In this document: one piece after another, positions 49,427 to 53,950 of the stretch
Layout of the letters: every line of letters starts with the position of its first letter
Numbering within the stretch: the first letter of the stretch is position 1
Assembly: GCF_038397745.1 (NCBI RefSeq)
Contig: NZ_CP151636.1
Span: 3,658,001 to 3,722,000, forward strand
Source: Microbacterium sp. LWH11-1.2
GTDB lineage: Bacteria > Actinomycetota > Actinomycetes > Actinomycetales > Microbacteriaceae
Length of the DNA: 64,000 bases
Direction of reading: 5' to 3'
Translations under genes and position numbers: made by a program
Notes under the pieces: model-generated
The model's input: the letters and a program-made list of their open reading frames with translations, nothing else
Told to the model about the DNA's origin: nothing
Database searches by the model: none

Positions 49427-52366
49427 TCAGGCGAAGGCCTCCACGGGCGGGCAGGCGCAGACGAGGTTGCGGTCGCCGTAGGCCTGATCGATGCGGCGCA
49501 CCGGCGGCCAGTACTTGCCGGCGACGAGCGCGTGCACGGGGTACGCGGCATCCTCCCGGGTGTAGGCGTGCGTCCACTCCCCCGCGATCAGCGAGACAGC
49601 GGTGTGCGGCGCGTGCACCAGGGGGTTGTCGTCGGCGGGCCAGCGCCCTGCCGCCACGGCATCCGCTTCCGCCTTGATCATGATCATCGCCTCGATGAAG
49701 CGGTCGATCTCGCCGAGGTCCTCCGACTCCGTCGGTTCGACCATGAGTGTCCCCGCCACGGGGAACGACATGGTCGGGGCGTGGAAGCCGTAGTCGATCA
49801 GGCGCTTGGCGACGTCGTCGACCGTGATGCCCGTGGCCTCCTTGAGCGGGCGGAGGTCGAGGATGCACTCGTGCGCCACTCGGCCGTTCTCGCCCGTGTA
49901 GAGCACGGGATAGTGCTCGCCCAGGCGGGCGGCGATGTAGTTCGCCGACAGCACGGCGGCCGCGGTCGCGCGCCGCAGGCCGTCTGCCCCCATCATGCGC
50001 ACGTACGCCCAGGAGATCGGCAGGATGCCCGCCGACCCGTACGGCGCGGCCGAGACGGCTCCGCCCTCGAACGTGAAACCGCCGAAGTGCTCGCTGCGCT
50101 GCGCGAGCGGATGCGACGGGAGGAACGGCGCGAGGTGCGCCTTCGCCGCCACGGGTCCGACACCGGGTCCGCCGCCGCCGTGCGGGATCGCGAACGTCTT
50201 GTGCAGGTTGAGGTGCGAGACGTCGCCGCCGAGATCGCCGAAGCGCGCGTACCCGAGCAGAGCGTTGAGGTTGGCGCCGTCGACGTACACCTGGCCGCCC
50301 GCGTCGTGCACCGCGGTCGTGATCTCCACGACGTCGTGCTCGTACACGCCGTGCGTGGACGGGTAGGTGATCATGAGCGCCGACAGGGTGTCGGCGTGCG
50401 CGGCGATCTTGGCGCGGAGGTCGTCGAGATCGACGTTCCCGAGCTCGTCGCAGGCCACCACGACGACCTTCATGCCCGCGAGCACGGCGGATGCCGCGTT
50501 CGTGCCGTGCGCCGACGACGGGATCAGGCAGACGGTGCGCTGCGCGTCGCCGTTGGCGAGGTGGTAGCCGCGGATCGCCAGGAGCCCCGCCAGCTCGCCC
50601 TGCGAGCCGGCGTTCGGCTGCAGTGAGACGGCGTCGTACCCGGTGACCTCGGCGAGCCAGCCCTCGAGCTGCTCGATGAGATCGAGATAGCCCTGCACGT
50701 CGGATGGCGGCGCGAACGGGTGGATGCCGGCGAACTCGGGCCATGTGATGGCGGCCATCTCGGTCGCGGCGTTGAGCTTCATCGTGCAGGACCCGAGCGG
50801 GATCATGCCGCGGTCGAGCGCGTAGTCGCGGTCGGCGAGGCTCTTCAGGTAGCGCATCATGGCGGTCTCGCTGCGGTGCGCATGGAAGACCGGGTGGGTC
50901 AGGTACTCGTCCTGCCGGATGAGCGCGCCGGGAAGAGCGTGGTCGCCGTCGCCGAATCCGAAGACCCGCTCCTTCGTGCCGCCGAAGACGTGCGCGACCT
51001 GGTGCAGCTCCGCGGTCGTCGTGGTCTCGTCGACCGCGATGCTGAGCGTGTCGGCATCGACGACGTGGAGGAGGAGACCCGCACCGTCGTGCGCCTGGTT
51101 CGCGAGTTCGTCCGCACGGCCGGGGACACGCACGGAGACTGTGTCGAAGAAGGCGTCGTGCACGACCTCGGCTCCGGCCTCGACGAGCCAGTCGCGCAGC
51201 AGCGCGGCCTTCGTCGCGACCTCCGACGCGATGGCTTCGAGGCCGTCGGGCCCGTGGTACACCGCGTACATGGAGGCCATGACGGCGAGCAGCACCTGTG
51301 CGGTGCAGATGTTCGATGTCGCCTTCTCGCGACGGATGTGCTGCTCGCGGGTCTGCAGCGAGAGGCGGTAGGCGGGCTTGCCGTCAGCGTCCACCGAGAC
51401 GCCGACGAGGCGCCCTGGCAGCTGACGCTCGAGGCCTGCGCGCACGGCCATGTACCCGGCGTGCGGACCGCCGAAGCCCATCGGCACACCGAAGCGCTGC
51501 GTCGTGCCGACAGCCACATCCGCGCCCAGCGAACCGGGCGACGCGATCAGGGTGAGGGCGAGGAGATCGGCGGCAGCGACCGCGAGACCGCCGGCGAGGT
51601 GTGCGGCGTCGATGACGGCCGAGGGGTCCCAGACCCGACCGGATGCTCCCGGATACTGCACGAAGACGCCGAACAGCTCCGCCGGGAGCTCCTCGCCCGC
51701 GGCGAAGTCCACGGAGACGAGCTCGATGCCGACGGCATCCGCACGGGTGGCGAGCAGCGCCTTCGTCTGCGGGAAGGCATCGGCGTCGACCGCGAAGACG
51801 TTCGACGCCGACTTCGAGGCACGCCGGGCGAGCAGCATGCCCTCCACGACCGCGGTCGACTCGTCGAGCATCGACGCGTTGGCGGTCGAGAGCCCGGTGA
51901 GCTCGGCGACCATCGTCTGGAAGTTGATGAGCGCTTCCAGACGGCCCTGCGAGATCTCGGGCTGGTACGGCGTGTAGGCCGTGTACCAGGACGGGTTCTC
52001 CAGTACACCCCGCTGGATGACCTGCGGAGTGATCGTGCCGTAGTAGCCGAGGCCGATCATCGGCCGGTTCACCGCGTTGCGCGACGCGAGGGCGCGCAAC
52101 TCGGCGAGCGCTTCGGTCTCGCTCGCCGCTGCCGGGATGGTCGAGTCGAGCGAGCCCGTCGGTCCGGTGAAGATCGAGGACGGGACCGCCTGGCGCATCA
52201 GCGCCTCGACGGCATCTCCCTCCTGGGTCCCTGAGCTTGCCCCCTGGGTCCCTGAGCTTGCCCCCTGGGTCCCTGAGCTTGTCGAAGGGTGGATGCCGAG
52301 CGCGTCCAGCATGGTCCGCTGGGCGGCGTCGGTGGGTCCGATGTGACGATCGGCGAAGGAGACCAC
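49427..52366 (-). CDS. gcvP: Glycine dehydrogenase (decarboxylating), P protein, with in-frame repeat insertion
   Basis: 979 residues, full-length single-chain GcvP. PLP Lys in [16 protein letters not shown] near 725; glycine-rich regions intact. It decarboxylates glycine and loads the aminomethyl group on lipoyl-GcvH. Residues 27-49 are three repeats built from PSTSSGTQ and GASSGTQ, placed between LGI and EGDAVEALM in the N-terminal domain, where homologues are short; the encoding DNA is a 21-nt tandem repeat. The reading frame stays open, so the protein is probably functional. GTG start 52366, last gene of the gcvT-gcvH-gcvP operon. Confidence 0.95.
52223..52288 (-). repeat. 21-nt tandem repeat inside gcvP
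   Basis: Three copies of CTGGGTCCCTGAGCTTGCCCC starting at 52223, 52244 and 52265; the last ends in TTGTCGAAGG, giving the complete element CCTTCGACAAGCTCAGGGAC on the coding strand. It reads as PSTSSGTQ followed by two GASSGTQ. Confidence 0.9.
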
Positions 52367-52373
52367 GGGTGGA

Positions 52374-52769
52374 TCAGCCCTCCGTCAGTGCGACGTACGC
52401 GTCGCGGTCGAGCAGGCCGTCAGTGGCGCCGTCGGCCACGGCGACCTTGATCAGCCAGCCGCCCTCGAAGGGCTCGGCGTTGACGAGCGACGGGTCGTCG
52501 ACGACGGCGTCGTTGATCTCGACGACCGTGCCGGCGACCGGGGCGTAGAGCTCTCCGACCGACTTCGTCGACTCGATCTCGCCGACGACCGCACCTGCGG
52601 TGAGCTCGGTGCCGACGGCGGGGAGCTCGACGAAGACGACGTCACCGAGCTTCTCGGCGGCGTAGTCGGTGATGCCGATGCTCACGGTCTGGGTTCCCGA
52701 GCCCGTCGAAGGACCGGTCGCGATCCACTCGTGCTCTTCGGTGTACTTCAGTGCGCTGAGGTCGGTCAT
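52374..52769 (-). CDS. gcvH: Glycine cleavage H protein (lipoyl carrier)
   Basis: 131 residues. Lipoyl domain with the modified Lys in [16 protein letters not shown] near 69. Shuttles the methylamine from P to T protein. Residues 19-27 (GPSTGSGTQ) replace what is normally a short turn after HEWxA; the same peptide motif occurs in gcvP. ATGA overlap with gcvT. Confidence 0.95.
52690..52712 (-). repeat. Element related to the gcvP repeat, inside gcvH
   Basis: Coding strand CCTTCGACGGGCTCGGGAAC, then CCA; differs from the gcvP copy only at A/G positions and is read in the same frame, giving PSTGSGTQ. Confidence 0.85.
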
Positions 52770-53950
52770 TTGGTCCTCCGGTAGAAAGGCAGGGCGGTCA
52801 CGGTCGCGGGGATCTTCGTCCCCCGCACATCAAGGAATACTGCTGTTCCCTCTTCCGCGGAAGAAGGATCGACGTAGGCCATCGCGATCGGGTGGCCGAG
52901 GGTCGGGCTGAGGGCGCCGCTGGTGATCTCGCCGAGCACCGTGCCATCGGCATCCACCACGGCGTAGCCGGCGCGCCCGGCGCGCTTGCCCTCGGCGGCG
53001 AGTCCGACGAGGACGGGAGCTTCCGGGGCCGCGTCGACGGCGTCCTTCCCGATGAAGCTCTCCTTGTCCGCCACCACCACTCGACCGAGGCCGGCCTGCG
53101 CCGGTCGGGTCTCGAGGGAGAGCTCGTGCCCGTAGAGCGGCATCCCGGCCTCGAGGCGGAGCGTGTCGCGAGCGGCGAGGCCTGCGGGAACGAGGCCGTG
53201 CGGCTCTCCGGCGGCGAGCAGGGCGTCCCACAGCGCGGGTGCGAGTGTGCTGGGGACGAGCAGCTCGAAGCCGTCCTCGCCGGTGTATCCGGTCCGGGCG
53301 AGGAGCAGGGGCTCACCGTGGAAGCGGGCGTCGGCCCAGGCGTAGTACCTCTGCTCGGCCCAGGGCGTACCGACCTCGGTGATGCCCTCGGTCGCCGCGA
53401 CGATGGCCTCGGCCGCGGGGCCCTGGACGGCGAGGAGGGCGAAGGAGTCCGAGACGTCCTCGACGTCGACCCCTCGGTCGCCGAGGAACCCGGCGAAGCT
53501 GCGCTCCTCCCCTTCCGCCCGGGGAGGCCCCTCGCGTTCGATGAGGGACGGGAACGACCGCACGCGCGAGGCGAAGGCCGCGTCGACGTAGCCGCGGTTG
53601 CCGGCGTTCGCGATCACCAGATAGCGATCGTCGGCGAGCCGGTAGACGATCACGTCGTCGACGATCCCTCCGGACTCCGACAGGATCAGCGAGTACTTCG
53701 CCTTGCCCACGGCCATCGAGGACAGGCGACCCGCGAGCGCGTAGTCGAGGAACTCCGCGGCGCTCTCACCCGTGACGAGGAACTCCGCCATGTGCGAGAT
53801 GTCGAAGAGACCGGCCGACCGGCGGACGGCGTGGTGCTCCGCGAGGTCGGAGGTGTAGCGCACCGGCATCTGCCAGCCGCCGAAGTCGGTGAACGACGCC
53901 CCGAGCGCCTCATGGCGCTCGCGGAGCGGGGTGTAGCGGGGGTCGGACAT
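52766..53950 (-). CDS. gcvT: Aminomethyltransferase, glycine cleavage T protein
   Basis: 394 residues. Opening [22 protein letters not shown], folate-binding region FDISHMAEF and [20 protein letters not shown] (about 100-120), [13 protein letters not shown] near 222 and [20 protein letters not shown] near 260 are diagnostic. Releases ammonia and forms methylene-tetrahydrofolate. First gene after the glycine riboswitch; ATG preceded by GGGAG. Confidence 0.95.

Follow-up and report, generated by a model that had tools for sequence, protein, structure and literature searches.

In Rickettsia, small dispersed repeats are already known to have entered unrelated protein genes in frame, and intragenic REPs are known from several species (PMC3733652, PMC10969869, in the portions considered here). 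The Rickettsia palindromic elements (RPEs) are palindromic and about 150 bp long (PMC10969869), and RPE-4 and RPE-6 have been equated with short CGTC REPs (PMC3733652). GTAG and CGTC REPs are 20-40 bp long, patchy in distribution, arranged as inverted dimers and sometimes intragenic, including copies that two Xanthomonas species carry inside recB at roughly the same position; the CGTC REPs are without a dedicated transposase (PMC3733652). Enterobacterial RU-1 to RU-3 are small mobile repeat units, found intragenically, of 103-168 bp that resemble MITEs (PMC2759123).

We describe a repeat family in Microbacterium that is patchily distributed across the genus, has in-frame copies in conserved protein families, recurs at the same loops, is read with a strong frame bias and varies in unit number. 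Like RPEs, it is inserted in frame within conserved protein families; unlike RPEs as the excerpts present them, its unit is ~24 nt, is not palindromic on its own, occurs in an actinobacterial genus and has one dominant frame. It shares with GTAG/CGTC REPs its shortness, patchiness, inverted dimers and partly intragenic placement, and with CGTC REPs the lack of a dedicated transposase, but it carries no tag and its single unit is unfolded, the comparison being with the REP text rather than the consensus figures. Like RU-1 to RU-3 it is a small repeat that reaches coding sequence, the RU units being longer and MITE-like. The main text of PMC3733652 uses neither 'actinobacteria' nor 'Microbacterium', and searches of open PMC text (without figures and supplements) with the repeat's nucleotide and peptide strings found no paper that contains them. 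Measured against the accessible parts of this literature, it is set apart by the absence of a tag, a single-unit hairpin and a transposase, by two subtypes that pair with each other, by one dominant frame in a genus and by recurrent inserts in the same loops.

Inserts in the gcvP and gcvH loops

The window, the whole 64-kb stretch of DNA analysed here, comes from a Microbacterium genome of 4.22 Mb (G000). It contains three minus-strand ORFs assigned to glycine cleavage, two of which host the repeat (window positions; the G-type consensus is described below):

49427..52366, minus strand: gcvP, glycine dehydrogenase, host of the tandem insert (TIGR00461, 1302.9 bits, cut-off 859.2)
52374..52769, minus strand: gcvH, host of the single insert (TIGR00527, 135.8 bits, cut-off 115.85)
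52766..53950, minus strand: gcvT-like ORF, named by sequence and position, in the same operon by position
52266..52286, minus strand: gcvP insert unit 1, TTCGACAAGCTCAGGGACCCA; with the ACCC just before it, a full element with 24/25 bases of the G-type consensus
52245..52265, minus strand: gcvP insert unit 2, a 21-nt partial copy, GGGGGCAAGCTCAGGGACCCA; GGGGG replaces TTCGA, and 17/21 bases are as in unit 1
52224..52244, minus strand: gcvP insert unit 3, GGGGGCAAGCTCAGGGACCCA, the same sequence as unit 2
52689..52712, minus strand: gcvH insert, CCTTCGACGGGCTCGGGAACCCAG, with 21/25 bases of the G-type consensus

The gcvT-like ORF overlaps the start of gcvH by 4 nt, and gcvH and gcvP are 7 nt apart. 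Their products, GcvH (131 aa) and GcvP (979 aa), both score above the family cut-offs. An earlier note on this DNA had read three tandem 21-nt copies in gcvP; the 21-nt period stands, but the CCTTCGAC half is confined to the first copy, and copies 2 and 3 match that copy at 17/21. The repeat region (52224-52288) consists of one full and two 21-nt partial copies. The note's single related copy in gcvH, and its PST(S/G)SGTQ peptides in both genes, were recovered as described, with PSTGSGTQ read at 52712-52689 in gcvH and PSTSSGTQ at 52286-52266, with flanks, in unit 1 of gcvP. A degenerate 17-mer allowing up to 2 mismatches matched 4 times in the window, compared with 0.36 expected, and its only exact matches were in gcvP and gcvH.

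In a predicted GcvH model (mean pLDDT 94.5) the insert lies at a hairpin turn between strands 14-21 and 26-33, at a site where relatives with a solved structure (3hgb) have five residues fewer. The GcvP insert sits between two segments alignable to 4lgl. On alignment, both repeats are insertions relative to homologues, and both sites are variable loops in relatives.

We searched for GcvH in 80 genomes (56 with and 24 without the repeat's exact 19-mer). There was one strong match per genome in 80/80, and the locus was read in 40 (31 with, 9 without); the remaining 40 had no gcvH match longer than 375 nt. Insert-free GcvH proteins among the loci read are 124-128 aa long and have a turn such as DGDT. 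Repeat-like loops occur at 8/40 loci (G000, G005, G117, G088, G238, G064, G076 and G029), and all eight genomes have the 19-mer elsewhere. Judged by length, the loop is found in 8/56 genomes with the 19-mer and 0/24 without (one-sided p 0.049).

The loop in G117 is an unmutated GGCCCTTCGACAGGCTCAGGGACCCAG. Matches to the 25-base consensus number 21 in G000, 23 in G005, 20 in G088, 21 in G238 (peptide ASAGSGTQ) and 22 in G076 (PSAGSGTQ), while G064 carries an inverted double, VPEPVEGSTGSGT, that matches at 22/25 in reverse. G029 resembles the others by its peptide only (GASGSGTV), its 14/25 bases being at the level of insert-free loops, and this one loop may be alike by chance. On a locus tree built without the insert columns, some nodes of which are weak (0.11, 0.12), the GcvH loop requires 5 Fitch changes (4 without G029), against an average of 7.5 for random labels. 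That there are fewer changes than with random labels suggests some inheritance too.

GcvP shows comparable recurrence. Its first loop carries inserts in G000, G116 (one unit), G184 (G-type) and G129 (C-type), is without one in G005 and accounts for three Fitch changes; a second loop holds copies in G076 and G064. The GcvP sequences of G181 (18/23, tandem) and G173 (19/23, reverse) probably contain decayed copies. Across several species, the gcvH and gcvP inserts retain 20 to 25 of 25 consensus bases. Slippage had been proposed as ongoing; unit number does differ, from 1 in the GcvP loop of G116 to 3 in that of G000, but the difference is seen only between species.

The repeat family and its frame within proteins

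An exact 15-mer, TTCGACARGCTCAGG, occurs 83 times in G000, as TTCGACAAGCTCAGG (24 copies) and TTCGACAGGCTCAGG (59 copies), and its reversed control 0 times. As a looser pattern (3 mismatches) was noisy, with 438 matches compared with 125 in the control, we relied on the strict forms. The unit is ~24-27 nt long with the consensus GGCCCTTCGACARGCTCAGGGACCCAGG, conserved in aligned copies from three bases 5' of the TTCGAC start to about 21 after it. Two subtypes can be distinguished: a G-type (CAGG; consensus CCC TTCGACARGCTCAGGGACCCAG, from 83 copies) and a C-type (CAGC; CGC TTCGACARGCTCAGCGACCCA, from 24 copies). The earlier note's main idea, a dispersed repeat turned coding in two genes of one operon, is borne out by the 83 exact copies and by the shorter loops of homologues. 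It had added that fixed-length GcvP and GcvH, or a repeat absent elsewhere, would speak for ordinary sequence; the lengths vary and the repeat is abundant. The coding copies extend beyond gcvP and gcvH, with further internal events in G000 and among six more genomes that were sampled.

Of the six frames of the unit, five are open, so copies that keep the frame can survive in loops. One frame nevertheless prevails: among 21 internal events in G000, 17 are read as PST, 2 as LRQAQGP, 2 in reverse as SLSLSKG and 0 as FDKLRDP (3e-9 against 1/5). This count comprises 20 strict internal copies and one non-strict copy, that of gcvH; a further 10 non-strict copies inside genes lie outside the tally. 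From the 37 strict copies inside genes we dropped 13 terminal ones (no more than 20 aa from a predicted end), 868397 (negative flank scores on both sides), 698392 (an inverted mate in one gene), and 1189430 and 1189478 (in tandem with 1189454). The 13 terminal copies comprise 7 in PST phase, 5 LRQAQGP and 1 WVPEPVEG; terminal and internal copies show no significant difference in frame (p 0.13).

Five other genomes were sampled as 54 copies at 40 picked places, of which 22 lay inside genes; 9 were dropped (terminal, weak flank, composite or mate) and 13 kept, none from G036. These read 7 PST, 3 LRQAQGP, 2 VPEPVEG and 1 SLSLSKG, a weaker bias than in G000; the PST share becomes 7/16 (p 0.03) if three dropped weak-flank or terminal events are counted as VPEPVEG. 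A sixth genome, G063, has 6/78 strict copies inside predicted genes, and after removal of 1 terminal copy and 3 in one array both kept internal events (2/2) are PST, bringing the six genomes together to 9/15. Pooled with G000, PST accounts for 26/36 events (2e-11 against 1/5), or 26/39 (3e-10) with the three dropped events, p values that are indicative, as the genomes are related and partly non-independent. The events were chosen after the tables had been seen.

FDKLRDP was found in 0/36 internal events. Its GC3 is 0.89 compared with 0.67 for PST; codon usage would thus favour FDKLRDP, yet that frame is unused. The dominance of PST fits tolerance of a flexible Ser/Thr/Gly linker, and we infer selection at the level of the peptide, rather than insertion chemistry, behind the bias. 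A preferred insertion phase may also be its source.

The host proteins are diverse. A single family match runs through the PST insert in an aldose epimerase, an M18 peptidase, a PRK09751-type helicase (two inserts), HrpA, an MFS transporter, riboflavin synthase, a FAH/RraA fusion, MenB, an ABC1 kinase and GcvH. In G000 the purM insert sits between the two Pfam domains of its host, a PutA-like protein is a further host with a match below cut-off, and in a GH-like protein and a methyltransferase the matched domain does not include the insert. For two proteins encoded at one G000 locus there was no NCBIfam match at 1e-8. Hosts in the five other genomes, 10/13 of which were scanned, are ALAD, two acyl-CoA dehydrogenases, an Mfd-like protein, galactokinase, an ABC ATPase, a prepilin peptidase, a PntA-like protein, an M13 peptidase and a SNF2 helicase. 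Four genes (L217, at G000 266165, and L220, L237 and L255) close with a tail that comes from the repeat, LRQAQGP or LRQAQDP, and one of these genes matches triose-phosphate isomerase models. A Melibiase-like ORF (G000 1189430-1189492) holds three tandem 24-nt units whose reverse reading gives PGSLSLSN/K repeats.

Copies also differ between closely related genomes. Over 380 kb, G000 and G005 share 34 syntenic blocks (342 kb summed) at 83-96% identity, mostly 91-93. The ribE insert is PSTSSGTQ in G000, where G005 reads [20 protein letters not shown]; the units of an ABC-transporter insert differ between the two; and an intergenic copy present once in G000 is doubled in G005. Some copies are one-sided, usually with local replacement of the orthologous bases, in a comparison where some copy sites are unalignable and clean empty sites are few.

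We consider the most probable explanation, at roughly three chances in four, to be a dispersed repeat in part of Microbacterium whose in-frame copies are kept in loops, with filtering for the PST frame and tandem growth after landing. A short repeat would spread through part of the genus, most copies falling between genes. Copies landing in genes would survive when the frame is kept, in loops and linkers, and the survivors would be filtered so that PST(G/S)SGTQ, a small, polar and flexible peptide, dominates within proteins. After landing, the 3' part would grow in tandem, in steps of 18 or 21 nt, equal to 6 or 7 codons. We infer slippage for the tandem expansion, and some trans-acting process that copies the unit.

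Such a repeat would amount to a linker-insertion experiment run by nature, in which a scattered DNA repeat is read as a small flexible loop in ordinary genes. With insert-free relatives at hand, dozens of separate insertions of one peptide in conserved enzymes of one genus allow two old questions to be tested: which places in proteins tolerate or make use of an insertion, and by what route short repeats that lack a known transposase spread. The PST(G/S)SGTQ loops can henceforth be recognized by annotators and structure modellers.

Placement, pairing and alternative explanations

Most copies lie outside genes. We picked 632 kb of G000 around copies, including all 83 exact ones, and counted copies inside and between genes, as had been suggested: of 107 strict copies, 37 are inside predicted genes, 1 is at an edge and 69 are intergenic, compared with a coding fraction predicted at 0.92, a value from a home-made codon-usage gene finder that is probably too high. 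The 44 intergenic clusters lie between convergent (18) or tandem (26) genes and never in divergent gaps (0), where all 350 gaps number 61, 193 and 96, respectively. In G063, 14 clusters divide into 8 convergent, 5 tandem and 1 divergent.

Opposite-direction neighbours no more than 130 nt apart form 19 pairs at 18 loci in G000, and 19/19 join a G-type to a C-type unit, where random expectation is 0.35 for each; 18/24 C-type copies are in such mixed pairs. Two of the inverted pairs have folding energies of -42.4 and -48.3 kcal/mol (z about -8), and in forming a long hairpin these two show a BIME-like trait. E. coli BIMEs also have two subtypes. The repeat had been called palindromic, which does not describe the unit itself: three single-unit forms gave no hairpin (z +0.26 to +0.96 against shuffles), the gcvP tandem folded no better than shuffles, and only inverted pairs fold. 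As to the traits of a MITE, no terminal inverted repeat was seen within a single unit, and clean empty sites were too few to show a target duplication.

The intergenic excess, the absence of divergent clusters and the strongly folding, always mixed inverted neighbours would all be in keeping with a unit that worked as DNA or RNA, as a terminator or a nucleoid or repair site, with coding copies as tolerated by-products from the intergenic pool. We regard this as possible but rather unlikely. The exact 19-mer is missing from 134/247 Microbacterium genomes, which speaks against a general need, and such a role alone leaves the frame bias unexplained. It is, however, compatible with a dispersed repeat kept in frame in loops, and the two are not mutually exclusive.

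DNA uptake sequences form inverted pairs that act as terminators and have preferred reading frames. A sequence of this type, enriched by biased recombination, could account, with no transposition involved, for terminators made of inverted pairs and for a favoured coding frame, in line with the inverted pairs, the empty divergent gaps of G000, the preferred frame and the missing RAYT (REP-associated tyrosine transposase) partner. However, the uptake sequences of Haemophilus and Neisseria are 9-12 nt long and are gained by substitution, leaving length unchanged, whereas the longer Microbacterium repeat adds length when coding (GcvH 131 versus 125 aa; the ribE product has 203 residues over a 192-position profile). 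We thus find this origin improbable.

Still less probable is a classical REP/BIME element mobilized by a RAYT. The strong folding of inverted pairs and the intergenic clusters between convergent or tandem genes of G000 agree with it, but single units do not fold, and neither GTAG nor CGTC appears in the column consensus of either subtype (83 G-type, 24 C-type copies). The candidate partner, Y1_Tnp (PF01797), was rejected: by this Pfam model it is absent from G000 and present in 1/247 genus genomes, G041, which is without the exact 19-mer. That sole Y1_Tnp gene lies at C15:20980-21342 of G041.

Ordinary fast-evolving loops that happen to look alike would suit the variability of both gcv sites in relatives, but this is scarcely credible: the likeness of the clear cases is not chance, because the 83 exact copies in G000 have no counterpart in the reversed control (0 matches), and several species retain 20 or more of the 25 consensus bases.

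Distribution across Microbacterium, the phylum and mobile DNA

The exact 19-mer occurs in 113/247 Microbacterium genomes, at 0 to 281 copies per genome, with controls at 0 in all. Placement is uneven in G088, because 420 kb (C26 640001-1060000) hold 0 strict or relaxed copies despite 151 exact 19-mers genome-wide. The description of such repeats as common in actinobacterial genomes proved too broad: the 15-mer is found in 21/396 genomes sampled across the phylum (our own included), 14 of which have a single match. The reversed 15-mer also matches once each in 10 genomes of that sample, so the single matches are near chance. One genome of the same class and another order (G533) has 21 matches, with the tail GRGCGA in most of 10 read. 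Six of these 10 lie inside predicted genes (2 PST, 2 LRQAQG, 1 SLSLSKG and 1 PELVEG), and no frame dominates.

Phage carriage of the Microbacterium form was considered and rejected, its 23-mer CCCTTCGACARGCTCAGGGACCC having 0 matches in viral_contigs. The 17-nt core has at least 120 matches there, and 30 that were examined have mostly other tails, L378 reading GACCAA. Plasmid records with a match number 59 (E up to 10), and just 2 of them cover 80% of the query; the matches include Sphingobium (16), Moraxella (9), Novosphingobium (4) and Comamonas (2). Tails were read in two proteobacterial plasmid matches, as GCGAACGG in Sphingobium and as GCGAAAGG plus ACGAACGG in the other.

We tentatively suggest, as an idea for which we would give less than even odds, that short repeats sharing the core CCTTCGACARGCTCAGG form a superfamily that spans phyla, has no known transposase and differs in its tails from lineage to lineage (GACCCA in Microbacterium, GRGCGA in the other actinobacterial order, GCGAACGG in Sphingobium). 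It might act in some hosts as a natural linker-insertion mutagen, writing the same flexible peptide repeatedly into loops of core enzymes. Common descent of the tail forms is a proposal.

Viral contigs and plasmids (L366-L488) also carry the 17-nt core with the tails GCGAAC, ACAGGC and more. Among the core matches listed from these sources, 21/140 have an inverted partner nearby.
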